In this document: piece by piece, positions 2,990-28,831 of the stretch | Numbering within the stretch: the stretch's first letter is position 1 | Layout of the letters: every line of letters begins with the position of its first letter | Assembly: GCA_016212465.1 (NCBI GenBank) | Contig: JACRGE010000005.1 | Location: 1-32,465, forward strand | DNA length: 32,465 nucleotides | Origin: Microcaldota archaeon | GTDB lineage: Archaea > Micrarchaeota > Micrarchaeia > Norongarragalinales > JACRGE01 | Direction of reading: 5' to 3' | Translations under genes and position numbers: made by a program | The notes under the pieces: model-generated | What the model saw: the letters and a program-made list of their open reading frames with translations, nothing else | What the model was told of the DNA's origin: nothing | Database searches by the model: none

Positions 2990-3020
2990 CTTTTATGCGG
3001 GGGTGGCAGAGCCTGGTAAC

Positions 3021-3062
3021 TTCTTTCTTTCGCGAAAGAAAGACCTTAACTAGAAAGAAAGG
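3021..3062 (+). repeat. Palindromic module in tRNA-Leu intron 1
   Basis: The pyrimidine arm TTCTTTCTTTC is followed by GC, the complementary purine arm GAAAGAAAGA, then CCTTAACTAG and a second purine arm AAAGAAAGG. This is the CCT-AACTAG variant of the repeat family. Confidence 0.7.
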
Positions 3063-3115
3063 CTTTTTGCAACAAGAATGAAGTCAGGAACAAATGCACA
3101 GGACTGAGGTAACTA

Positions 3116-3204: not shown

Positions 3205-3322
3205 CTTTTTCTTTCTCGCAGAGAAAGAAAACCTCAACTAAAAGAAAGGCACGTCTTTCAGCTTTTTTCTGCGGAAAAAACCTGGGAAAAAAGAAAGACC
3301 TGCACTAGAAAAAGAGGCAAAA
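3205..3322 (+). repeat. Two palindromic modules in tRNA-Leu intron 3, one nested
   Basis: A first module (3205-3250) has arms CTTTTTCTTTCTC and GAGAAAGAAAA, then CCTCAACTAAAAGAAAGG. A second outer module has arms GTCTTTC (3253-3259) and GAAAGAC (3293-3299), then CTGCACTAG. A complete 33-nt inner module (3260-3292: AGC, T-rich arm, CTGCGG, A-rich arm, CCTGGG, A tract) sits exactly in the loop of that outer module. Confidence 0.75.
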
Positions 3323-4183: not shown

Positions 4184-4256
4184 CCTTTTGTGCGCAAACA
4201 GCCTTTTCTGCGGAAAACAGCTTTTCTTGGAAAGAAAACCTGGGAAAAGAACCTGA
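4184..4256 (+). repeat. Nested palindromic modules between rpl13 and rps9
   Basis: CCTTTTGTGCGCAAA (4184-4198) is followed by an outer module AGCCTTTTCTGCGGAAAA ending at 4217. An inner module (4218-4249: CAGC, CTTTTCTT arm, AAAGAAAA arm, CCTGGG, AAAAG) then interrupts it. The outer unit resumes with AACCTG. The insertion point lies between the purine arm and the CCTG box, as in other nested copies in this window. Confidence 0.7.
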
Positions 4257-5344: not shown

Positions 5345-5389
5345 CAGGGAAAACAATATCCTATTGTTGGGGGAATGGGGTAGCCTGTC

Positions 5390-5436
5390 AGCCCTTCTTT
5401 TCTTGAAAGAAAAGAAGCCCTGGGGGAAGAAAAGAA
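5390..5436 (+). repeat. Palindromic module in tRNA-Pro D-loop intron
   Basis: AGC, arm CTTCTTTTCTT, complementary arm AAGAAAAGAAG, then CCCTGGGG and a second copy of the purine arm (AAGAAAAGAA). The pyrimidine arm can pair equally with either purine copy. Confidence 0.75.
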
Positions 5437-5474
5437 TATCTTGGCAGGGCTAGGCATCCTACCAGCTTGGGGTA

Positions 5475-5515
5475 AGCCTTTCTTTTTGGTAAAAAGAAAC
5501 CCTTGGGAAAGAAAA
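5475..5515 (+). repeat. Palindromic module in tRNA-Pro anticodon-loop intron
   Basis: AGCC, arm TTTCTTTTT, loop GGT, arm AAAAAGAAA, then CCCTTGGG and AAAGAAAA. Confidence 0.7.
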
Positions 5516-5554
5516 CCCTTGAAGAGAGGATTCCGAAATGCTGGTGACCCGAGT

Positions 5555-5673
5555 AGCCTTTCTCTTTCAGCTTTTCTTTGAAAGTAACCCTTTTGTTGCG
5601 ACAAAAGCGTTAACGGAAAACTAAGCCTGGGAAAAGAAGATAAAAAGAGAAACCCTAGGGAAAGAGAAAAACC
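5555..5673 (+). repeat. Triple-nested palindromic modules in tRNA-Pro T-arm intron
   Basis: The outer arms CCTTTCTCTTT and AAAAGAGAAA with CCCTAGGG and AAAGAGAAAA enclose a middle module (AGCTTTTCTTTGAAAG to CCTGGGAAAAGAAG). That module is itself split by a third segment containing CTTTTGTTGCGACAAAAG and GTTAACGGAAAA. The outer and middle layers match the tRNA-Arg intron at the same tRNA position. Confidence 0.75.
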
Positions 5674-5714
5674 CTACTGCTTGGGAATTCGAATCTCGGT
5701 TCCCCCATTTTTCC

Positions 5715-5725
5715 ATTAAATTAAT
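5715..5725 (+). promoter_or_regulatory. TATA-like box for tRNA-Gly
   Basis: ATTAAATTAAT lies 28-38 nt upstream of the tRNA-Gly 5' end in the short spacer after tRNA-Pro. It could give tRNA-Gly its own promoter. Confidence 0.4.
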
Positions 5726-5752
5726 TAGCTTCAGCTTCCAAAATCATAGCGT

Positions 5753-5937
5753 GCGGCCGTGGTCTAATGGTATGATTTCAGCGGACCTTTCTTTGGAAAA
5801 GAAAGCTCCACCAAAGAAACTTCCGGAATACGCCTTCCAAGCTGACGGACCGGGTTCAATAGGGGAACCTACGGTTCCTTCTATCCTCCCTTTTGGATAG
5901 ACTGTTTCCGTCCTAACTGAAAATCCCGGCGGCCGCA
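5753..5937 (+). tRNA. tRNA-Gly(UCC) with two introns
   Basis: Acceptor GCGGCCG (5753-5759) pairs with CGGCCGC (5930-5936), A73 at 5937. The D arm GGTCTAATGGTATGAT is typical of tRNA-Gly. Intron 1 (about 5783-5833, 51 nt) sits between anticodon-stem strand TCAGC and loop CTTCCAA, that is 31/32, not the canonical 37/38; the anticodon is TCC at 5836-5838. Intron 2 (about 5860-5922, 63 nt) interrupts the T loop, joining TTCAA to AT. Splicing restores stems TCAGC/GCTGA and CCGGG/CCCGG and a tRNA of about 71 nt. Intron 2 carries ordinary hairpins (GGAAC/GGTTCC, CTATCC/GGATAG), not the shared module. Confidence 0.9.
5786..5820 (+). repeat. Palindromic module in tRNA-Gly intron 1
   Basis: CCTTTCTTT, GG, AAAAGAAAG, then CTCCACC and AAAGAAA: the same arm-loop-arm-spacer-arm plan, with a diverged spacer box. 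Confidence 0.55.
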
Positions 5938-6167
5938 TTTCTTGTTTTTTAATCGTGTTGGTTGAGAAATCCCAAGTCCTTGGCTTGTTGGATGCCGGCC
6001 CCATTTTTCGTAATTGTCTCACGGCTTGTTCCAGCTCGAGCCAAATTTCCCTTGAGGTATTGGAAAGACCACTTTTGGGGTAGAGCATGCCTTCACAGAA
6101 GCATGGGAGACGGTAGCTTGAAAACACTCTTGAAATATGTTCATGACGAACGCTAGCAGCGTAGAAA

Positions 6168-6848
6168 TTATCTCGCCTTGATCTGCATTTCCTTCTCCAT
6201 CTCACGCTCTTCGCAGACTTTGAGGAAAATCTCGCCGAAAAACTCGTCTTGCCAAGCATTCATTTTAGTTTCTTGAACGAGATGCAGTACTGGAATGAGG
6301 TAGTAGGTTATATTTTCAGGAGTTTTGTCGGTTAGCAGAGCGGAGAAAAGAAGGATACTCTCTTCATCCTTGAGCGAAATTGCTTTCTCGTATACTTCCC
6401 TGATCTTCTCATGCAGCTCTTGCTTCGAAATCTCGATATTCAATACCCTCGGGATGGCTACCCTCGTTGTAAGCCTCTTGCCTTGCTTCATCACTTCGTC
6501 AACCGCGTTAATGAGCTCTTCCAGCGTGACCCTTCTCCTTCTCGGTCTGTTTGCCCTGAATACGAGCTCGGGAATATTTTCTTCAATCATCTCAATCTGT
6601 TTAGCGTCGGCTTCAGCTTCGGTCTCGAAAGCAATTGCCTCTGCCTTGAACCTCAGCAGCAACGCAGATGCGAGAATAACGTTCGCTGGAATTCTCAAGT
6701 CAAGGGCCCGCATCTTCCTTATCTCTTCAAGATACCTATCAGCAACTTCCACAAGGTCTATGTCCCACGGATCCAGCTTGTTTTTCACAATTAAATCAAC
6801 TAAGAACCCCCTCCAAGTGGGTTTCACTACTAGGTCAAGCAATTCCAT
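6168..6848 (-). CDS. scpA: Segregation and condensation protein A (ScpA, kleisin)
   Basis: Kleisin subunit that bridges SMC heads in chromosome condensation and segregation. The N-terminus WRGFLVDLIVKNKLDPWDIDLVEVADRYLEEIRKM, followed by IPANVILASALLLRFKAEAI, is the ScpA signature. The C-terminal part (about 130-226) holds the winged-helix-like region. At 226 residues it is a normal archaeal length. ATG 6848 is the first start and precedes the conserved region. It is convergent with tRNA-Gly and divergent from the KaiC-like gene; neither smc nor scpB is adjacent. The 230 nt between tRNA-Gly and its 3' end show no convincing gene. Confidence 0.93.
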   Translation of the reverse strand: MELLDLVVKPTWRGFLVDLIVKNKLDPWDIDLVEVADRYLEEIRKMRALDLRIPANVILASALLLRFKAEAIAFETEAEADAKQIEMIEENIPELVFRANRPRRRRVTLEELINAVDEVMKQGKRLTTRVAIPRVLNIEISKQELHEKIREVYEKAISLKDEESILLFSALLTDKTPENITYYLIPVLHLVQETKMNAWQDEFFGEIFLKVCEEREMEKEMQIKAR

Positions 6849-6901
6849 TAAACCACTTTTTCAGGAAATACGAACTGGTACGCAAATACTACGTCCTGCG
6901 A

Positions 6902-6910
6902 CTATAAAAA
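6902..6910 (-). promoter_or_regulatory. TATA-like box for scpA
   Basis: On the minus strand TTTTTATAG lies about 55 nt upstream of the scpA ATG, within the divergent spacer shared with the KaiC-like gene. Confidence 0.4.
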
Positions 6911-7018
6911 ACTTCCCCACGACGACAGTTGACCCCCCGCCCCTCGTTTCACAAGGTTTTTTAATGAAGCTAGGGTAATACTACAGTAGCTTCGTGTTGC
7001 ATCTGTGAAGGTGAAGGA

Positions 7019-7717
7019 ATGAAGCGCATTCATACTGGAATAGATGGATTGGATGAATTGATTGAAGGAGGGTTTCCAGAGGGCTCCAGCGTCCTGGTGA
7101 GCGGTGGCCCTGGTTCTGGCAAAAGCATTTTCTGCATGCAGTACCTGTATAGTGGAGCCAAAGAATATGATGAGCCGGGAGTTTATATTACGATGGAGGA
7201 AGGTCCACACAACCTTTGGTGGAACATGCAGCGGTTCAAGTGGGATCTCCTGCCTCTTGAAAAAGCGGGAAAACTCAAGATATTCAAGTTTGAGCCAAGC
7301 CCTGACATGACTGACTTGGAAGAGCAGGCGAAAAAGATTGTAGAAAAAGCGCGTGAAATGAACGCCAGACGAGTTGTCATAGACTCTATTTCAGCCTTTT
7401 CTTTCTGGATAGAAAACGTCGCCAAAATCCGTTATGGTATCTACGTGCTGATAGAAGAACTCAGGAAAATCAACTGCACTTCCGTTCTCACGAGCGAAAC
7501 ACTTGGTGGCAAAAAGGAATATAGCCGCTTTGGGGTAGAGGAGTTCCTTGTTGACGGCCTCGTAATGCTTTACTTCGTTCCGCCCCACAGGATTCTGTTC
7601 GTTAGGAAGATGAGAGGCACAAAACATTCGATGAGCGTCCATCCCCTTGAAATAACAGAAAAAGGCTTGGTCGTGAATCCAAGGGAAGAAATTCTCTGGG
7701 AAGCATTAAGAGACTAA
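7019..7717 (+). CDS. KaiC-like RecA-superfamily ATPase
   Basis: Single-domain KaiC/RadA-like ATPase of 232 residues. It begins RIHTGIDGLDELIEGGFPEGSSVLVSGGPGSGKS with a Walker A motif (GGPGSGKS, about residues 30-37), has EE in YITMEEGPH as the likely catalytic glutamates and Walker B at RRVVIDSISAF (about 120-126). Single KaiC domains of this type are abundant in archaea and are linked to signalling or motility, but a specific role is not assignable here. ATG 7019 follows GAAGGTGAAGGA, a good Shine-Dalgarno. It is transcribed away from scpA and converges on the nucleotidyltransferase gene. Confidence 0.9.
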   Translation: MKRIHTGIDGLDELIEGGFPEGSSVLVSGGPGSGKSIFCMQYLYSGAKEYDEPGVYITMEEGPHNLWWNMQRFKWDLLPLEKAGKLKIFKFEPSPDMTDLEEQAKKIVEKAREMNARRVVIDSISAFSFWIENVAKIRYGIYVLIEELRKINCTSVLTSETLGGKKEYSRFGVEEFLVDGLVMLYFVPPHRILFVRKMRGTKHSMSVHPLEITEKGLVVNPREEILWEALRD

Positions 7718-7798
7718 TTTGTTTTCTTTCTGAGTGGCTTTTATACCTTTGTTGTTTGGAAAACTTTCATAAATTGATTTGCAGCCAGTCAAACCTGC

Positions 7799-9037
7799 TT
7801 ATTTCCAGAAACACGAGCTCTCAAGCTCTTGGCTGAAGTACTCAATTGGTGTTTGAATCTCGCCTTCAATGACTGCCTCGTTCTTGAGTTCCACACGCGG
7901 CCACAGCTTGGAGTTGCCCAAGATTCTGCTTCCCTTGCCTGCTTTAGTTTGGTAACCAATCATCGCATAGCCTTCAATCCTGCTGTCATCTTCAATCACG
8001 GCTTCGCCGTCTATTATGCAGTTCTCTGCATGCACTCCATCTCCAATTCTTGAACGCTCAAATACGACGCTGCTTGAGATAAAAGACTTGGAGCCGATTT
8101 GCGAGTCGTGTATTAAATAAACGTAAGGCCCTATCACCGAGTCTTCAGCGATCTTGCACTTGTCTTCAATAATCACCGGCCCCCTTATTACGGTGCGTTT
8201 TCCGATTTCCACGTTCTTTCCAATCTGCACTTGCTTTCCGATCACAACGCCCTTGCCTGCTTTTCCTGAAGAAGGCGGTATCAAGTTGAATGCGAGGCGG
8301 TTGATTTCGATATAAGTTTCTGGAGTTCCCACGTCGCCCCATACTCCCTCGTACTTAAAACCATAAATGGGTATCTTGTTCGCGTAGTACTGGTATACGT
8401 GACCAATCATGTCCGGCTTTTGCTTCATTTTCTTCCTCTCCTCAACATACTTGGGAAGGTGTTCTTCTACGAACTGTCTTCCCCAGATGTATGCTGCAGG
8501 ACTCACGAGGTTTGATATAGCATATTCAATGCGAGGCTTTTCCTGAAATTCCTTCACTTTCCCATTAGAGTCTATTCCAACCATGCCGTTTCTCTCAATG
8601 ATGTAGCGGTTGTCGGTCTGGTAGAGCGAGAGAGTGATATGTGCTTTTTTTTCTTCGTGGAATTCCATCATCTTCCTTAGGTCGAGTCCATGAATGAAGT
8701 TGTCGCTTCCTAGAATAAGGTAATCGCCAACGCCGAATTGCGTAGTGACTTGGTGGATTGCGCCTATTGCTCCCGGCTTGTCTTCATCTCCCGTGCTGTG
8801 CTCGTAATAGTAGTCTATCTTCACTCCAAACCTTGATCCTTCTCCAAAATACTCTTCAATCCTCTTCTGGTTTTTGTTCAATGATATTATTACCTTGCCT
8901 ATCCCTGCTGCTTTGAGCATTTCAATCTGGTGTTGAATAACTGGCTTTCCTGCAACCGGCAAAAGGACTTTCGGCGTCCGCAACGTTATTGGATACAATC
9001 GGATTCCATAGCCCCCTGCGAGCAACAATGCTTTCAT
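7799..9037 (-). CDS. Bifunctional-type sugar-1-phosphate nucleotidyltransferase (GlmU-like)
   Basis: The N-terminal nucleotidyltransferase domain (about 1-235) starts MKALLLAGGYGIRLYPITLR followed by TPKVLLPVAGKP, the GxGxRLxPxTxxxPK signature that binds the NTP. It also contains LGSDNFIHG at the metal site. The C-terminal half (about 255-400) is a left-handed beta-helix of hexapeptide repeats (VVIGKQVQIGKNVEIGKRTV and so on), as in archaeal GlmU-type or mannose-1-phosphate guanylyltransferases. The natural sugar and nucleotide cannot be fixed from sequence alone. At 412 residues it looks complete. A GAAGGTG Shine-Dalgarno precedes the ATG at 9037. It is divergent from a phosphohexomutase gene, and the two enzymes would act in consecutive steps: mutase to sugar-1-P, then activation to NDP-sugar. 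Confidence 0.92.
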   Translation of the reverse strand: MKALLLAGGYGIRLYPITLRTPKVLLPVAGKPVIQHQIEMLKAAGIGKVIISLNKNQKRIEEYFGEGSRFGVKIDYYYEHSTGDEDKPGAIGAIHQVTTQFGVGDYLILGSDNFIHGLDLRKMMEFHEEKKAHITLSLYQTDNRYIIERNGMVGIDSNGKVKEFQEKPRIEYAISNLVSPAAYIWGRQFVEEHLPKYVEERKKMKQKPDMIGHVYQYYANKIPIYGFKYEGVWGDVGTPETYIEINRLAFNLIPPSSGKAGKGVVIGKQVQIGKNVEIGKRTVIRGPVIIEDKCKIAEDSVIGPYVYLIHDSQIGSKSFISSSVVFERSRIGDGVHAENCIIDGEAVIEDDSRIEGYAMIGYQTKAGKGSRILGNSKLWPRVELKNEAVIEGEIQTPIEYFSQELESSCFWK

Positions 9038-9145
9038 TTCATTCCACCTTCTAAAATTTTAAAAAGCTCAAACAATGAAATATTATAAACAAATATCGTT
9101 ATAAAGATTGGTTGTGTCTTATCTTATTTTTTGCGGAGGGTTTTA
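9038..9145. promoter_or_regulatory. Divergent promoter region of the nucleotidyltransferase and phosphohexomutase genes
   Basis: This AT-rich spacer contains AATATTATAAAC and CGTTATAAAG, both TATA-like, between two genes of the same pathway. The arrangement would allow coordinated expression. The individual start sites are not resolved. Confidence 0.45.
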
Positions 9146-10522
9146 ATGGTTCCTAGAAATATTTTCAGGGAAAACGACATACGCGGGCTTGTCGACAAGG
9201 AAATCACTCCCGAGCTTGCGAAGCAAATCGGTGCCGCCTTTGGAACGCACGTGCAGAACTACGGGGGGCGGGAAATCATCGTCTCGAGGGACAACAGACC
9301 AAGTTCTGGTTGGATACGTGATTCCGTGGTCGCGGGGCTGACGGAAGCCGGATGCAATGTGATTGACATAGGCGAAATGCCCGTCCCCGTGTTCTACTTC
9401 TCACTCGCACACCTGAAAAAGAATGGAGGGGTGATGATCACAGGTTCTCACGTGCCAAAGGAATTCAACGGATTCAAGCTCTGCATCGGGATGAAGGCGA
9501 TGGTGGGCGAAGAAATCCAGGAGATCAGGAGAATAATCGAGGCAAAGCGGTTCAGGCATGCGGCAAAACCAGGCGCCGTGAAGGTCACGGACGTCGCGGA
9601 AAATTACTTATCCTACTTGAGACGCATGATGCGCTTGAAAAAACCCCTGCAGGTGGTCGTAGACGCTGGAAACGCGGTTGCAGGGAAGATCGGGCCACAG
9701 GCCCTGAGAGAGATAGGATGCAAGGTCACCGAACTGTACTGCGAGTCGGATGGAACTTTCCCGCACCACTTCCCAGACCCAGAGAAGCCAGCCAACGTAA
9801 AGGAACTCGTTCACGTTGTCAAAGAAAAAAAAGCAGATCTAGGCATCGCTTATGATGGAGACGGGGACAGGTTGGGCGTGGTAGACGAAAAAGGCAGGGT
9901 CCTTTTTGCAGACCGCTTCATAATCGTAGTGGTACAGGATTTGCTTAAGCAGCATCCGGGTGCGAAGATACTCTTCGACGTAAAATGCTCCCAAATGCTT
10001 ATTGATGAAATAAAGAGATTGGGTGGAACCCCCTTGATGTGGAAGACAGGTCACGCGCTGGTGAAGAAGAAGATGAAGGAAGAAAACGCGGCGTTAGCAG
10101 TAGAGCTCAGCGGCCACATATACTTCTCAGAAAACTTCAATTTCGATGACGCCATCTTCGCCTCATGCAAGCTTGCTGAAGTCATTTCAAAAAGCGAAAA
10201 AACACTGTCAGAGCTTTTGAATTACCTGCCCGTATATTACACCACAACTGAGCTCCTGATTCCCTGCGCAGACGACAAGAAGTTCGTGATAGTCGAAGAG
10301 ATAAAGAACGCCTTCAAGCAGAGGAACTACAACGTGGTTGACGTCGACGGTGCCCGCGTCGTGCTGGAGAATGCGTGGGGGCTTATCAGGGCGTCCAACA
10401 CTTCGCCTAATTTGTCGCTGAGATTTGAGGGAAAGACGGAGAAAGAATTTGCGTTCGTTCAAAAGCTATTCGAGAAAGAGCTTGACAAGTTCGGCCTCAA
10501 AATCCCACAAAGTGAGGATTGA
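9146..10522 (+). CDS. Phosphomannomutase/phosphoglucomutase family protein
   Basis: Alpha-D-phosphohexomutase interconverting hexose-6-P and hexose-1-P. It starts MVPRNIFRENDIRG. The phosphoserine loop is MITGSHVPKEFNGFK (Ser about 101), a TGSHVP variant of the commoner TASHNP. The metal-binding loop is YDGDGDRLG (about 235-243), and the sugar-binding ELSGHIYFSEN lies near 315-325. The 458 residues match the four-domain family. ATG 9146 was chosen over the upstream in-frame TTG at 9131 because GGAGGG lies about 5 nt before it. PMM, PGM and phosphoglucosamine mutase activities cannot be separated by eye. It is paired divergently with the nucleotidyltransferase. Confidence 0.93.
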   Translation: MVPRNIFRENDIRGLVDKEITPELAKQIGAAFGTHVQNYGGREIIVSRDNRPSSGWIRDSVVAGLTEAGCNVIDIGEMPVPVFYFSLAHLKKNGGVMITGSHVPKEFNGFKLCIGMKAMVGEEIQEIRRIIEAKRFRHAAKPGAVKVTDVAENYLSYLRRMMRLKKPLQVVVDAGNAVAGKIGPQALREIGCKVTELYCESDGTFPHHFPDPEKPANVKELVHVVKEKKADLGIAYDGDGDRLGVVDEKGRVLFADRFIIVVVQDLLKQHPGAKILFDVKCSQMLIDEIKRLGGTPLMWKTGHALVKKKMKEENAALAVELSGHIYFSENFNFDDAIFASCKLAEVISKSEKTLSELLNYLPVYYTTTELLIPCADDKKFVIVEEIKNAFKQRNYNVVDVDGARVVLENAWGLIRASNTSPNLSLRFEGKTEKEFAFVQKLFEKELDKFGLKIPQSED

Positions 10523-10555
10523 AAGAGAACGTTTAAATCGGATGATGTATCGACA

Positions 10556-10644
10556 GGCGCAGTTGAAAATCTCTGATTTCTAGAGGGAAAAGCGGCGGAA
10601 TCTAAAATCATAAGACTGGGAAGGAGAACCTTTTCGACAGGGCC
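10556..10644 (+). mobile_element. MITE-like element, copy A (89 bp)
   Basis: Terminal inverted repeats are GGCGCAGTTGAAAA at the left and, on the minus strand from the right, GGCCCTGTCGAAAA. Flanks TGTATCGACA (10546-10555) and TGTATCTACG (10645-10654) agree at 8 of 10 positions, consistent with an old 10-bp target duplication. Interior blocks GAGGGAAAA, GGCG and CTAAAATCAT are shared in order with copy B at 13.9 kb. It carries no ORF. It lies downstream of the phosphohexomutase gene. Confidence 0.7.
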
Positions 10645-10731
10645 TGTATCTACGGCGGGTTTTGCTTCAACTAGATTTGGAATTGGCTCTGGAAGATAAT
10701 GAGATACCCGAGAAATAACCTTCATGTGATT

Positions 10732-11016
10732 TCAGAAATAAAGTTTCTCCTTCTTGATGAGCACAGGGTATCCGAGAGAAACGCCTATTATGAGGATGAA
10801 GGTAAGGTATGTGACAAGGGGATCGATTCTTATCCTCATTGCGAGGTTTATGAAAAGAAGAATCAGAGAAGGAACGAGCAATCCCAGTATGGGGATGAAG
10901 ACAACCCTTTCAACGAAGTCAATGTCCCCCTTTTTGAAAATCACTAAGCTCAGCGCGTATCCACTAATTATTACAAGCGTGATTCCGAACACAATCTGAA
11001 AGAATTCAAGCCCCAT
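10732..11016 (-). CDS. Small membrane protein, function unknown
   Basis: This 94-residue protein has three hydrophobic segments, about residues 5-27 (FQIVFGITLVIISGYALSLV), 40-60 (FIPILGLLVPSLILLFINLA) and 68-86 (VTYLTFILIIGVSLGYPVLI), so it is likely a three-pass membrane protein. It resembles the N-terminal membrane part of DUF1616-type archaeal proteins, but I am not confident of the family. ATG 11016 follows AAGGTTAGTGC on the minus strand. It is probably co-transcribed with the UPF0147 gene, 36 nt upstream. Confidence 0.65.
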   Translation of the reverse strand: MGLEFFQIVFGITLVIISGYALSLVIFKKGDIDFVERVVFIPILGLLVPSLILLFINLAMRIRIDPLVTYLTFILIIGVSLGYPVLIKKEKLYF

Positions 11017-11052
11017 GCACTAACCTTCATTTGAAAAACAGTTTCTGCCGAA

Positions 11053-11310
11053 TCATCTCTTTTTCTTTATAGTCTCCAGCTCACTCAAAATGTTCCATAT
11101 CATAGTTCTAGCATGCATTGGCAGGTTGATGTCGTTGCTTACCTCATCCAACGCATAGATGGCGCCGCTGGCTCCGGTGGCGATGTCCTCGTTGGTAGTA
11201 AGCCTGTCCTTCGCAGCCTGCAAAGCGGCTCTAACGTTTTTTGGCACACTTCCGTCTGCAATCAATGAGTCAATGAGTTCTGCTATGACTGTAACCTCTT
11301 CGTTGCCCAT
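11053..11310 (-). CDS. UPF0147 family protein
   Basis: Small all-helical archaeal protein of unknown role. The run VIAELIDSLIADGSVPKNVRAALQAAKDRL and the C-terminal EVSNDINLPMHARTMIWNILSELETIKKK are characteristic of UPF0147. The chosen ATG (11310) gives 85 residues, the family's usual size, and is preceded by GGAAGTG. A longer reading frame to 11379 would add 23 residues without family similarity and would start at or upstream of likely TATA boxes (11360-11367 and 11379-11385), so the shorter form is preferred. Confidence 0.88.
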   Translation of the reverse strand: MGNEEVTVIAELIDSLIADGSVPKNVRAALQAAKDRLTTNEDIATGASGAIYALDEVSNDINLPMHARTMIWNILSELETIKKKR

Positions 11311-11359
11311 GCTAATCACTTCCGAAAAATCTGCGATGACCGTAGTTGTTGTCATTGCA

Positions 11360-11385
11360 ATAAATATGCTGAACGGCATATAAAT
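11360..11385 (-). promoter_or_regulatory. TATA-like boxes for the UPF0147 operon
   Basis: On the minus strand ATTTATA (11385-11379) and ATATTTAT (11367-11360) lie about 50-75 nt upstream of the chosen UPF0147 ATG. Either could direct a short-leader transcript covering UPF0147 and the downstream membrane protein gene. Confidence 0.4.
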
Positions 11386-11428
11386 TGCTTTCTACTTATG
11401 TTCTGGAGACGTTTGGATTCGTTCAATT

Positions 11429-11434
11429 AAAAAA
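11429..11434 (-). terminator. Oligo-T terminator of tRNA-Arg
   Basis: Reading the minus strand, a run of six T follows two bases after the discriminator base of tRNA-Arg, a typical archaeal termination signal. Confidence 0.5.
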
Positions 11435-11436
11435 GG

Positions 11437-11632
11437 CGGGCCCGGCGCGACTTCCCGACTTTGTTCCTTTAAACTAAAGATTTGAACTCGCAGGCCGCAG
11501 GTTTTCTCTTTCCCTGGGGTTTCTCTTTCTTCTTTTCCCAGGTTTTCTTTCCAAGAAAAGCTGAAAGAGAAAGGCCACGCGCGACCTTTTCCTTAGGAGG
11601 GAACTGCTCTGTCCAAGCTGAGCTACGGGCCC
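11437..11632 (-). tRNA. tRNA-Arg(CCU) with two T-arm introns and a 7-nt micro-exon
   Basis: On the minus strand, acceptor GGGCCCG (11632-11626) pairs with CGGGCCC (11444-11438), G73 at 11437. The D arm and anticodon arm are continuous, with loop CTCCTAA and anticodon CCT. The T-stem 5' strand GCGCG (11582-11578) is followed by intron 1 (11577-11487, 91 nt). Then comes the T loop TTCAAAT (11486-11480), then intron 2 (11479-11450, 30 nt), then the 3' T-stem strand CGCGC (11449-11445). Both introns must be removed to make a T arm. Spliced length is about 75 nt. The junctions are inferred from stem restoration and could shift by a few bases. Confidence 0.88.
11487..11577 (-). repeat. Nested palindromic modules in tRNA-Arg intron 1
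   Basis: On the minus strand, outer arms GCCTTTCTCTTTC and GAAAGAGAAA with CCCCAGGG and AAAGAGAAAA enclose an inner module: AGC, TTTTCTT, GG, AAAGAAAA, CCTGGG, AAAAGAAG. Layer for layer it matches the tRNA-Pro intron at 5554-5687. Confidence 0.75.
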
Positions 11633-14155: not shown

Positions 14156-14235
14156 CTATTCCAAAGAATGTTTTTTTCGCCAGGGCTTACAATGGCGTGG
14201 ATCGTTCAACCTGGCAGGACTTGGGCCTGTGGCAA

Positions 14236-14270
14236 AGCCTTTTCTTTCTTGAAAGAAAGAACGTCTTTGC
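14236..14270 (+). repeat. Palindromic module in tRNA-His intron 1
   Basis: AGCC, arm TTTTCTTTCTT, arm GAAAGAAAG, then AACGTCTTTGC. The spacer box is lost, but the arm sequence matches the family. Confidence 0.65.
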
Positions 14271-14298
14271 AGAGAGCCCACTATTGGGGTTCAAACCA

Positions 14299-14346
14299 AG
14301 CCTTTCTTTTCTTGAAAGAAAAGAAACCCTTGGGAAAGAAAAGAAC
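14299..14346 (+). repeat. Palindromic module in tRNA-His T-loop intron
   Basis: AGCC, arm TTTCTTTTCTT, arm AAGAAAAGAAA, then CCCTTGGG and the second purine arm AAAGAAAAGAA. CAAGC and GCTTG just outside close the intron stem. Confidence 0.75.
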
Positions 14347-14373
14347 AGCTTGCGAAAATCCCCATCTACGCCC

Positions 14374-25108: not shown

Positions 25109-25141
25109 AATCAATTTTAAAACATCTTGCCTAATTCTTTC

Positions 25142-28100
25142 ATGACTCAAACCATTAAGGCGTTTCTTCTTGAAGTGGAGCACGTGACCAAAGGCGGTGA
25201 GGCCTTTGTCAAATTGATGCTGAAAGAGCCCGGGGAGAATGGGAGAGTGTTCAAGTTATACGATTATTTTGAGCCTTATTTCTTTCTCCTTCCAGACGAA
25301 CCCAAACAAATAGAAAAAGTGAAGAAACAGATTACGGAGATATCGGTTTTCGACAGGAGCGAGAAAATAAAAACGAAGAGAGTTGAAGAAGACGAGCGGG
25401 AAATAGACGGGAAAAAGGAAAAACTCCTCAGAGTGTTCGTTTGCCATCCCCAGCACGTTTCAAAAATCCGCGAAGAGGCGAAGAGGTGGGGAAAGACGTT
25501 TGAATACACGATTCCGTACGTGAGACGGTATTTGATTGACAAGAATTTGTTTCCCACCTCGCTTGTTGAAATTGAAGCAGATGAACTTGGGGAAATGGTG
25601 AAGATAATAAGGAATGTGGAGGAAAAGCGGGATGAAGCGCCTTCCCTCAGAAAGCTCTCCTTTGATATAGAAGTTTTTAATCCAAAAGGAATTCCGGAAC
25701 CAGAAAAGGACCCTTGCCTGATGATTAGTTTCTTTGACGGAAGGGAAGGAGGAGTTTTAAGCCACACCAAAAGATTTTCTGCTGATTTCGTGAAGTCCTT
25801 TTCCTCTGAAAAGGAAATGATTGAGCAATTCAGGGAAGTGCTGAAGACGAAAAAAATTGACCTCCTTTACTCATACAACGGCGATGTTTTTGACATCCCC
25901 TACTTGAGGGAACGGGCGAAGAGAAACAAAATCAAGCTGTTGCTGGGAAGGGGAACCAAAGAACCCACCATACGAGCGAGAGGAATACGGGGCATCTCCC
26001 AGGTTTCCGGAAGAATTCACTTGGACGTATTCAATGCAATTGCTTTCCTAGACGCAATCGGGGCAATCCGCATGCCGCGGCTCACTCTTGAAAAAGTTTA
26101 CGCAGAGTTGCTTGGAGGAGAAAAAGAGGACATAAGGAAACTGGATATTCACAAGATATGGGATGAAGGAGGAAAAGAACTTGACAGGCTCGCGAGCTAC
26201 TGCAAAAGCGATTCCATTGCCTGCTTTCAACTAGGCGAATACGTCCTTTCCTCTGAAATAGAGTTGAGCAAAGTCACAGGAACCACTTTATTCGATGCCT
26301 CGCGCTCTACGACAGGACAACTGGTTGAAGCGCTTCTCATGCGAAGAGCTTTTGAAAGAAAGGAGTTGATACCCAACAAACCCAAGCCCGACGAAATCTC
26401 TTACAGACTGGAGAGACCCATTGAAGGAGCATATGTGAAGATGCCTGAGCCAGGCCTTTATGAAAACATTGCAGTCCTGGACTTTCGCTCTCTATACCCC
26501 TCCATCATCATCTCGCACAACATAGACCCCTCCACTTTGAACTGCGGCTGTTGCTCAAAAGAAGATGCGTCCGTTTCTCCCTTGGGTCACCGCTTCTGCA
26601 AGAAAAGAAGGGGATTGATTCCGTCCGTCCTGAGCGAAGTGATTTATGCGAGGATAAAATTGAAAGAGAGAATGAGGAAGGTGGACAAGGACAGCGAAGA
26701 GTATAAGAGAGCGGATGCGCGCCAGTGGGCTTTGAAGATAGTCGCTAACTCGTTCTACGGCTATCTCGCCTACGCCCGTTCCAGATGGTACTCAAGGGAG
26801 TGCGGCGAGAGCACGACCGCATGGGGCAGGTATTACATCCAGGAAACAATCAATAAAGCAGAAGAAGCCGGTTTCAAAGTATTGTATGCCGACAGCATCA
26901 CTAGTGAACGGTTTGTTACCCTGCTTGACCCGAATGGTTTTGTTAGAATAAAAAACATTCAGGAATTATTTGGGGAGAATAAGAAAGACCTGTTTATTCG
27001 GGGTGAGAAGGAAGTTATTAACTTGAAGGGATACAAATCGCTTTCCATTGACCCCAGTTCCCTTGAACCAACGTGGAAAGAAATTCAAGAGATAATACGC
27101 CATAAGACCAGCAAAAAGATTTTCAGAGTAGTACAAAAATATGGAGAAACTAGGGTAACTGAAGACCATTCCCTGATTACCTTGGAGAAGGGATTGTTGA
27201 GTGAAACCAGGCCCCAAGACCTTCCTGGAAAGCATCTAGCAAAGCTTTGGACCGCGCCTCCCGTGCAGGAGATAAGTAAAATAGACTTGTTTGAGTTGCT
27301 GAAGCAGTACGAGAAATCAACTATTTATAAAAAACGGTGCAAGATTTCGAGGGTTCACTGCGATGAAAACTGGGTGTGGTTTGGTTGGACGAACAGAAAA
27401 AAACACGTCAAGCTAAAAAGATTCCTGGAAGTCGGTTCACGAGAGTTTGATTCCCTTTGCAGGCTTGTTGGAGCTTACGTAGCCGAAGGAAGTGCCTCCA
27501 CTGCAGAGACGGCCTTTAGGGAAATGACTAGCATCGCGTCCCAGGACAAAAATTGGCTTTCTTCACTTAAAGAAGATTTCTTGAACTTGTTTTCGAATGC
27601 TAGCGCTTCAATAATTCAGTCGAATAAGGGAACCAGGACGCTTGCCTATAATAATCACGGTTCTGTGAAGATCATTCAGTATGTTGACAAAACTTTCAAG
27701 ATGCAAATTGGAAGCGAGCTCTCGGCTGTTTTATTCAAGGTGCTTTGCGGGCAAAAGAGCCATGGCAAGCGGCTTCCTGAATTCGTGTTCCATGTCCCGC
27801 GCCGTTGCAAAGAGCTTGTGCTTCAGGAAATGATCAAAGGGGACGGCAGCAGAAGCGTAAACAAGAGGCTGGGCTATTCAAAAGAGTATGTTGAAAAAAA
27901 TTTCAGATATACCTCTAAATCACTGGAGCTTGCCTCTGGTCTTTCGCTGTTGTTAAATCAGCTCGGGATAAAGTACTACGTTCAATACAGGCCTGCTAAA
28001 AAAGTTTATTCAATCGGCACTTCAACAAAAACCAATGCGGCCGTCAAAACAAAAATAATCGAAGAAGATTACGACGGATATGTATACGACCTGAGCGTTA

Positions 28101-28831
28101 AGGATACTCACATTTTCTCAGACAGTTGCGGTCAAGTTCTTTTGCACAATACCGACTCGCTTTTCTTGTTGTTTGAAAAAGACGGGAAGAAAGTGCACGA
28201 ATTCCAGCAAAAAATCAATTCCGAATTGCCTGAGAAAATGGAACTGGAGATTGAAGGGATTTACCCCCGCGGGATTTTCGTGAGCAAGAAGCAGGAGGAA
28301 AAGGGGGCGAAGAAAAAATATGCTTTGGTGGACAAGGAAGGGAAAATCAAGATCCGGGGATTCGAGTTGGTTAGAAGGGACTGGTCTAGGGTGGCAAGGC
28401 ACACGCAGCGCGAGGTTTTGGAAATTCTTTTGAGGGAAGGAAATGTTGAAAAAGCGATTGAGTTGGTGAGAAAGCGAATAAAGGAATTGAAGGAAGGGAA
28501 AATCCCTTTAGGGGACTGCGTCATCTATACCCACCTTAGGAAGAAAGTGAAGAGCTACGAGGTCACTGCGCCCGAGATAAGCGCGTTCCAGAAAGCAAGG
28601 GAGAAAGGTTTTCCGATAGAGGAAGGTGCAGTAGTTGGGTATGTCATTACAAAGAAGGGCAAAAGCATTTCAGATAAAGCCCACTTGTTTGAATTAGCAG
28701 AGGACTACGACCCGGATTACTACATCAACCACCAACTGCTTCCTGCAGTTCTAAAGATTCTTGGCGCGCTAGGCTTCAAGGAAGAGGACATCAAGACGAA
28801 AGGAACCCAAAGGGGCCTCGGGAACTGGTGA
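25142..28831 (+). CDS. polB: Family B DNA polymerase containing an intein
   Basis: Replicative-type PolB with proofreading. Exonuclease motifs: FDIEVFNP (Exo I), YNGDVFDIPYL (Exo II), YCKSDS (Exo III). Polymerase motifs: DFRSLYPSIIISHNIDPSTL (motif A), KIVANSFYGYLAYARSRW (motif B) and YAD-TDS (motif C), where an in-frame intein separates YAD from TDS. The precursor is 1229 residues; removing the 419-residue intein leaves 810, normal for archaeal PolB. The C-terminus TQRGLGNW resembles the PCNA-interacting end of family members. ATG 25142 is preferred over TTG 25127. map follows after 19 nt and is probably co-transcribed. Confidence 0.96.
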   Translation: MTQTIKAFLLEVEHVTKGGEAFVKLMLKEPGENGRVFKLYDYFEPYFFLLPDEPKQIEKVKKQITEISVFDRSEKIKTKRVEEDEREIDGKKEKLLRVFVCHPQHVSKIREEAKRWGKTFEYTIPYVRRYLIDKNLFPTSLVEIEADELGEMVKIIRNVEEKRDEAPSLRKLSFDIEVFNPKGIPEPEKDPCLMISFFDGREGGVLSHTKRFSADFVKSFSSEKEMIEQFREVLKTKKIDLLYSYNGDVFDIPYLRERAKRNKIKLLLGRGTKEPTIRARGIRGISQVSGRIHLDVFNAIAFLDAIGAIRMPRLTLEKVYAELLGGEKEDIRKLDIHKIWDEGGKELDRLASYCKSDSIACFQLGEYVLSSEIELSKVTGTTLFDASRSTTGQLVEALLMRRAFERKELIPNKPKPDEISYRLERPIEGAYVKMPEPGLYENIAVLDFRSLYPSIIISHNIDPSTLNCGCCSKEDASVSPLGHRFCKKRRGLIPSVLSEVIYARIKLKERMRKVDKDSEEYKRADARQWALKIVANSFYGYLAYARSRWYSRECGESTTAWGRYYIQETINKAEEAGFKVLYADSITSERFVTLLDPNGFVRIKNIQELFGENKKDLFIRGEKEVINLKGYKSLSIDPSSLEPTWKEIQEIIRHKTSKKIFRVVQKYGETRVTEDHSLITLEKGLLSETRPQDLPGKHLAKLWTAPPVQEISKIDLFELLKQYEKSTIYKKRCKISRVHCDENWVWFGWTNRKKHVKLKRFLEVGSREFDSLCRLVGAYVAEGSASTAETAFREMTSIASQDKNWLSSLKEDFLNLFSNASASIIQSNKGTRTLAYNNHGSVKIIQYVDKTFKMQIGSELSAVLFKVLCGQKSHGKRLPEFVFHVPRRCKELVLQEMIKGDGSRSVNKRLGYSKEYVEKNFRYTSKSLELASGLSLLLNQLGIKYYVQYRPAKKVYSIGTSTKTNAAVKTKIIEEDYDGYVYDLSVKDTHIFSDSCGQVLLHNTDSLFLLFEKDGKKVHEFQQKINSELPEKMELEIEGIYPRGIFVSKKQEEKGAKKKYALVDKEGKIKIRGFELVRRDWSRVARHTQREVLEILLREGNVEKAIELVRKRIKELKEGKIPLGDCVIYTHLRKKVKSYEVTAPEISAFQKAREKGFPIEEGAVVGYVITKKGKSISDKAHLFELAEDYDPDYYINHQLLPAVLKILGALGFKEEDIKTKGTQRGLGNW
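26894..28150 (+). mobile_element. Intein with LAGLIDADG-type homing endonuclease in PolB motif C
   Basis: Codons 585-1003 of the precursor, 419 residues. It begins with the nucleophile Ser (SITSERFVTLLD, block A). The block B-like motif is TEDHSLIT. Two endonuclease motifs resemble DOD blocks C and E (LCRLVGAYVAEG and EMIKGDGSRS). Block F is GYVYDLSVKDTHIF, and it ends LLHN with Thr as the +1 extein residue, so all splice-essential residues are present. The coding sequence is open and the endonuclease acidic residues (AEG, GDG) are intact, so it may be active for splicing and possibly for homing. Insertion at the catalytic YxDTDS motif is a known intein site in archaeal polymerases. Confidence 0.93.

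Follow-up and report, generated by a model that had tools for sequence, protein, structure and literature searches.

Transposition of introns between tRNA genes was reported for the Thermoproteales in 2010, and the mechanism of archaeal intron mobility, which is unknown, is supposed to operate at the DNA level (PMC4090602). Here we analyzed a stretch of 32,465 nucleotides from a Micrarchaeota archaeon (contig JACRGE010000005.1, positions 1 to 32,465; in the following, the window), in which a tRNA-Pro and a tRNA-Arg gene carry related introns. Like the transposed Thermoproteales introns (PMC4090602), the introns of this type are near-identical sequences found in non-orthologous tRNAs and at different positions, with bulge-helix-bulge (BHB) junctions; unlike them, they belong to Micrarchaeota, and their core occurs also in 16S rRNA and probably in RNase P RNA. 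The results suggest, with a probability of about 0.7, that the Pro and Arg introns belong to a family of short, mobile BHB introns of Micrarchaeota, this estimate including the putative copying of the family through DNA triplexes.

The source of the window is a metagenome-type bin of 104 contigs (1.2 Mb, approximately 91% complete). About 130 kb, in stretches around matches, was examined, most of the locus contexts being read by eye. The bin contains two 16S rRNA genes (contigs C63 and C77), the exons of which are only approximately 70–80% identical, and one of the two is probably a contaminant. The C77 operon (16S, 1811 bp; 23S, 3135 bp) is much poorer in insertions and probably comes from another archaeon; the window contig and C63 are tied together because their core types match. 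A scan of the genome contigs with a window protein returned distant relatives only.

The Pro and Arg introns and their family

The first-pass annotation of the window had described homologous introns between T-stem base 53 and loop base 54 of two tRNA genes. Both introns were found as described, at 5554–5687 (+) in tRNA-Pro and at 11577–11487 (−) in tRNA-Arg, and both occupied the 53/54 junction with BHB geometry (CCCG AG|T AGC...GCT TGGG AA|T in Pro and CGCG CG|T GGCC...GGCC TGCG AG|T in Arg). Their pairwise alignment gave a local score of 116.5, compared with 39.0 ± 6.2 for 1000 dinucleotide shuffles (maximum 59.5), and was carried by two blocks, one of 42 nt (88%) and one of 27 nt (96%). 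Searching the bin with 22 bases of the common block and up to three mismatches returned these two places alone. Since the arms of these introns consist solely of A/G or C/T, the likeness could in principle come from base composition, as in convergent purine/pyrimidine-rich filler. The shuffles, however, stayed far below the real score, shuffled sequence contained no mirror-armed elements, and the loop, the AGCC start and the mirror arms are conserved. Composition alone was thus ruled out by the shuffles as the source of the similarity, and we regard the chance that the introns are convergent filler as negligible.

As their outer module, the two introns carry the core of an intron family that is spread over the genome. 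This core of approximately 50 nt has the order AGCC-Y-loop-R1-CCCnnGGG-R2, where the pyrimidine tract Y is complementary to the purine tract R1, and R2 mirrors R1. The two introns also have in common a second, dispersed repeat of the CCTGGG type, nested in the loop of the outer hairpin. The inserted AGCTTTTCTT module noted in the first pass was present but not specific to the pair: there were 13 close copies of it in the stretches examined, and the inner repeat of the Arg intron, CAGCTTTTCTTGGAAAGAAAACCTGGGAAAAGAA (11530–11563, −), is identical at 34 of 34 nt to an intergenic CCTGGG-type copy at 4218–4251 (+), between the L13 and S9 ribosomal protein genes. The Arg intron consists of an outer CCCCAGGG core and this inner repeat. 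The Pro intron is a nest of three repeats, one inside another: an outer CCCTAGGG core (R1 at 5645–5652, CCCTAGGG at 5653–5660 and the R2 mirror arm at 5661–5668, all +), an inner CCTGGG-type repeat, and, inside the inner module, a third insert, TTTTGTTGCGACAAAAGCGTTAACGGAAAA (5587–5620, +), resembling modules in the L005, L066 and C75 contexts. The extra insert in Pro is thus confirmed and has likenesses elsewhere, and the proposal that Pro is derived relative to Arg is plausible.

A look for further 53/54 introns had been suggested as a check; counting Pro and Arg, such introns occurred in at least seven tRNAs of the genome (Pro, Arg, Lys, Glu and Val, plus one each on C75 and C73), those of Val and the C73 gene having other loop classes. 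Beyond 53/54, Pro has introns in the D-loop and at 37/38, and Arg has one at 59/60. The genome contained 19 exact CCCTWGGG cores, compared with none for the reversed-pattern control. In all, 24 distinct CCCnnGGG cores were counted, and a reading of their contexts placed all 24 within RNA genes in the sense orientation. The occupied sites were tRNA D-loops, 37/38, 53/54 and 59/60, two 16S rRNA sites, and one site adjoining an RNase P RNA match. This last core probably lies in the RNase P RNA gene, as judged from a below-threshold Rfam match and from a P1 helix that can be traced by eye from one side of the intron to the other. A one-to-one transposition from 53/54 in one tRNA to 53/54 in the other, as first envisaged, did not survive these findings: introns occupy several positions besides 53/54, the cores at this junction differ in other tRNAs, and the genome-wide copies rule out a Pro–Arg exchange as the whole story. 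Gene conversion limited to the Pro and Arg loci, with no mobility in the rest of the genome, would account for the same composite of outer and inner modules at the same junction, but the modules are dispersed over many genes, rRNA and other genomes, and we consider this explanation very improbable.

Cores in different genes were often almost the same. The core of the tRNA-Leu(CAG) 59/60 intron was identical to a 16S core at 46 of 47 positions, that of the Lys 53/54 intron to that of the Val D-loop intron at 50 of 53, and the RNase P-associated core on C94 to the C75 53/54 core at 50 of 52. In G039, a genome of another Micrarchaeota family, the Leu D-loop and Ala anticodon-loop introns had cores identical over 57/57 nt and a Gln D-loop intron over 51/51, while tails and exons differed. 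Exact-core matches were found in 9 of 301 genomes of the phylum, representing several families, and the core was also present in tRNA introns of G010, G007, G133, G136, G137 and G138. Such near-identical cores across genes and positions are best read as recent transposition, and because the tails differ even between identical cores, it appears to be the core that moves and not the whole intron. The comparisons support well an intron transposition much wider than the Pro/Arg pair; the proposed case outside the Thermoproteales is thereby upheld in a broader form, which involves different tRNAs and positions and extends to 16S rRNA and, probably, to RNase P RNA. The 16S rRNA gene of G039 (G039:C4:89709-93474) is 3766 bp long, indicating that a heavy load of rRNA insertions is not unique to the JACRGE01 genome.

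In the genome of the window, the 16S and 23S rRNA genes span 2931 and 4983 bp, compared with 1478 and 2987 for the respective models. Alignment to relatives with 16S genes of normal length revealed approximately 10 insertions in 16S, some of which have a BHB and no core. The BHB reads GTAA TG|C GCTGA...TTAGC TTAC AA|G in 16S and TTCA AA|T CAAGC...GCTTG TGAA CA|T in tRNA-Leu. A 4-bp helix between two 3-nt bulges was seen in the Pro, Arg, Glu, Leu and 16S examples; it was relaxed in Arg 59/60 and C75 53/54. The start of a core lies at most a few nucleotides from the 5′ splice site, and some cores take in the BHB inner helix (AGCC..GGCT). Among the other loop classes, a mirror-armed element with loop CCTTTACT lies antisense inside the 23S rRNA gene (L055 11428, −), an exception to the sense orientation. 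The D-loop intron of tRNA-Val(CAC) (G000:C16:6900-7200, −) is approximately 240 nt long and contains several mirror-armed elements in succession.

These distributions bear on whether the introns themselves move. Mirror-armed cores could be dispersed DNA repeats, comparable to BoxC/intrastrand triplex or REP-type sequences, which enter pre-existing, immobile introns because they do no harm there. The CCTGGG, CCTCAACT and TGCGG types are indeed both intergenic and nested in introns, the 3′ tails, which hold a BHB strand, are locus-specific, and the same 16S gene has introns devoid of a core. Against this, the CCCnnGGG core was confined to RNA genes, always sense and near the 5′ splice site, which is unexpected from random insertion, and the BHB inner helix is part of some cores. 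We therefore consider repeats sheltering in immobile introns a possible explanation, if clearly a less probable one than a mobile intron family.

The mirror rule and a possible way of copying

When cores were extracted by the CCCnnGGG loop and purine flanks only, 36 of 37 had perfect 8-nt mirror arms, the single imperfect one (L060) having one mismatch. For the cores with asymmetric and hence informative arms (for example, TCTCTTTTCTT..AAGAAAAGAGA..CCCTAGGG..AGAGAAAAGAA), 32/33 were perfect mirrors and 0/33 direct repeats, whereas pairing R1 and R2 from different cores gave a mean of 4.2 and a maximum of 13 perfect mirrors. With arms of 10 nt and any loop, 30 mirror sites were found versus one direct site. 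These counts exclude R2 as a direct repeat of R1. RNA folding was likewise rejected as the explanation of R2, as Y–R2 pairing is possible only for arms that are mirror-symmetric in themselves, such as that of Pro. The three-way relation between Y, R1 and R2 was kept by 13 different arm sequences across several genomes, and the same arms occurred with unrelated second loops (CCCTAGGG, CCTGGG, ACCTCAACT, GAGTGGCC and CATTAATG). Such three-way covariation over 13 arms is the signature of an intrastrand triplex motif, into which the cores may fold.

Taken together with the distribution, this suggests a scheme in which a core of approximately 50 nt would be copied into 16S rRNA, many tRNA positions and, probably, RNase P RNA. 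A local 3′ tail would complete each copy, forming the BHB by base pairing with the host exon. In single-stranded DNA the core would fold into an intrastrand triplex, and the mirror arms would be kept for that reason; the structure could cause replication stalling and breakage, and repair-templated insertion could then place the core in a new gene. Both the triplex and its causal link to copying are what we infer here. What would make the copies tolerable to the host is its splicing endonuclease, an epsilon2 enzyme of broad specificity. The EndA of this genome (385 aa; L147:1061-2218, −) matched the ARMAN-2 EndA 4fz2 over its full length (E 3.5e-128), and the ARMAN-2-type epsilon2 EndA has broad substrate specificity (PMC12397907), which fits with tolerance of introns at odd positions. 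The likeness to the ARMAN-2 enzyme (4fz2; PMC12397907) is one of homology, and excision by EndA is predicted from the BHB geometry. A more far-reaching version, in which the family is a minimal mobile element of approximately 50 nt that is also a BHB intron, has the three-strand DNA fold as its only hallmark, spreads among tRNA, rRNA and RNase P RNA genes by triplex-induced copying and is hidden from selection by a promiscuous splicing endonuclease, is tentative and in our judgment rather doubtful.

Several observations weigh against the mobile-family reading with triplex-driven copying. Copying was not caught in progress, there being no empty site or strain polymorphism in the data. The arms are A-rich and loop 2 measures 6–8 nt, compared with the 1–6 nt allowed by the triplex database (PMC4666352). 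Purine-motif triplexes, for their part, owe their stability to G*G-C triads, and RNA is reported not to form them (PMC4666352). A blind BHB scan of all mirror-armed elements gave 26.7% versus 8.4% for mismatched flanks at score 10.5 (overall p 0.02), a weak result which is partly due to the inclusion of intergenic copies. The strict sense orientation speaks as much for insertion mediated by RNA, or for a constraint acting on RNA, as for a DNA-level process; transcripts with U-rich tracts may be selected against, or insertion may go by way of RNA. The A-rich arms fit less well with a sense-strand purine motif than with T*A-T triads on the complementary strand and, since purine-motif triplexes are reported absent in RNA, a role at the DNA level appears likelier than one at the RNA level.

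Insertion by way of RNA would mean that an excised intron enters a different tRNA or rRNA by reverse splicing and becomes fixed there via reverse transcription and recombination, the mirror arms acting at the RNA level or being incidental. It would agree with the strict sense orientation and with targets that are highly transcribed structured RNAs. The 3′ tails should then travel with the core, yet they differ between identical cores in G039, and the mirror relation has no Watson–Crick meaning in RNA. We hold this route to be unlikely and prefer DNA-level copying of a mobile intron core.

The Y1 transposase PF01797 was absent from the bin (approximately 91% complete), and an REP/IS200-type element moved by such a transposase was rejected on that ground. 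The tRNA introns of the window (30–134 nt) are too short for a homing-intron reading frame and contained none, and no LAGLIDADG gene was recognised in the introns inspected. A 16S insertion of 715 nt (L055 ~5993-6709; G000:C63) has a 196-aa frame with no Pfam match; by eye, FEVDFV...TIIEVTS in this frame resembles a PD-(D/E)XK nuclease motif, possibly of an unrecognised homing endonuclease. As to viral carriage, a search of IMG/VR limited to the arm variant AAAGAAACCCTAGGGAAAGAAA gave 0 exact matches.

tRNA genes and repeats of the window

ARAGORN and Rfam missed four tRNA genes in the unspliced window, Pro(GGG), Gly(TCC), Arg(CCT) and His(GTG), each with at least two introns. ARAGORN found 0 tRNAs in the unspliced window and gave scores of 116–124 for intron-free versions of Pro, Arg, Lys, Gly and Leu. 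Automatic intron removal with a strict BHB recovered part of the tRNAs, as some genes contain three introns and a number of introns have a relaxed motif; the remainder were read by eye.

The tRNA-Pro(GGG) gene (5369–5707, +; ARAGORN 121.4 when spliced, undetected unspliced) has three introns. Its D-loop intron (5388–5453, +) holds a triplex-like core, CTTCTTTTCTT / AAGAAAAGAAG / CCCTGGGG / GAAGAAAAGAA; a perfect BHB fits 5389–5457, and the boundary may shift by a few nucleotides. The 37/38 intron (5473–5538, +) has a core of the CCCTTGGG type, and the third is the 53/54 intron described above. The tRNA-Gly(TCC) gene (5753–5937, +; 117.2 when spliced) has two introns, the first on the anticodon-arm side (5781–5831, +) with arms TTTCTTT / AAAGAAA / AAAGAAA, and the second at 59/60 (5860–5921, +; read by eye). 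The sequence GGAACCTACGG...TTCCTTCTATCCTCCCTTT is common to this Gly 59/60 intron and to the T-loop intron of another tRNA (C28:13101, L012), and represents a second, unrelated 59/60 intron family, the C28:13101 member having an extra hairpin inserted.

The tRNA-Arg(CCT) gene (11435–11632, −; 116.8 when spliced) has, in addition to its 53/54 intron (11487–11577, −), a 59/60 intron (11451–11480, −) with a relaxed BHB read by eye. The tRNA-His(GTG) gene (14195–14373, +), upstream of hisS, folds after removal of its introns at 14233–14273 (anticodon loop, boundary uncertain) and 14296–14358 (59/60), both +, the latter containing a core of the CCCTTGGG type (14299–14352, +). Two intergenic mirror-armed elements belong to the ACCTTAACT (3018–3063, +) and ACCTCAACT (3207–3250, +) loop classes. 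Apart from these elements, the window encodes a family B DNA polymerase (25127–28831) with an apparent intein splitting the YADTDS motif.

Comparison with known systems

The results point to one intron family that has invaded tRNA, rRNA and probably RNase P RNA genes in DPANN archaea, and whose hosts in the window are tRNA genes invisible to standard tRNA finders. The family supplies recent identical copies in different tRNAs together with a testable structural hypothesis, and mirror arms plus CCCnnGGG constitute a searchable marker for it. The triplex-capable build of nearly every copy points to a way in which archaeal introns may spread. A literature search confined to an open-access library turned up no paper that connects triplex motifs with archaeal introns.

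As compared by description, the conserved Y-R-R mirror architecture and the nested repeats found here have no counterpart in the cited accounts of Thermoproteales tRNA introns. The BHB introns of Thermoproteales 16S and 23S rRNA genes (PMC4496867) are alike in that a single rRNA gene carries several, including short hairpin introns, while many of the short ones described here carry mirror-armed cores common to tRNA introns.

The closest structural likeness is to the class II purine-motif intrastrand triplex repeats (BoxC/TM-ECO; Holder et al. 2015, PMC4666352), which have the same order of Y, R and reverse-Hoogsteen R on one strand. Arms of 7–11 nt, many near-identical copies and the Y/R1/R2 symmetry are common to both. 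With respect to the ITxF rule (stems 6–15 nt, loops 1–6 nt), the stems of 7–11 nt comply, and loop 2 is 8 nt in the CCCnnGGG type and 6 nt in the CCTGGG type; the CCCnnGGG core was classed as triplex-like and not as a class II member because its loop 2 breaks this rule. The elements described here are A-rich, with a loop 2 of 6–8 nt and an archaeal host, whereas those of BoxC/TM-ECO are G/C-rich. Moreover, TM-ECO is always intergenic in E. coli MG1655 (PMC4666352), whereas the CCCnnGGG type lies inside BHB introns of RNA genes.

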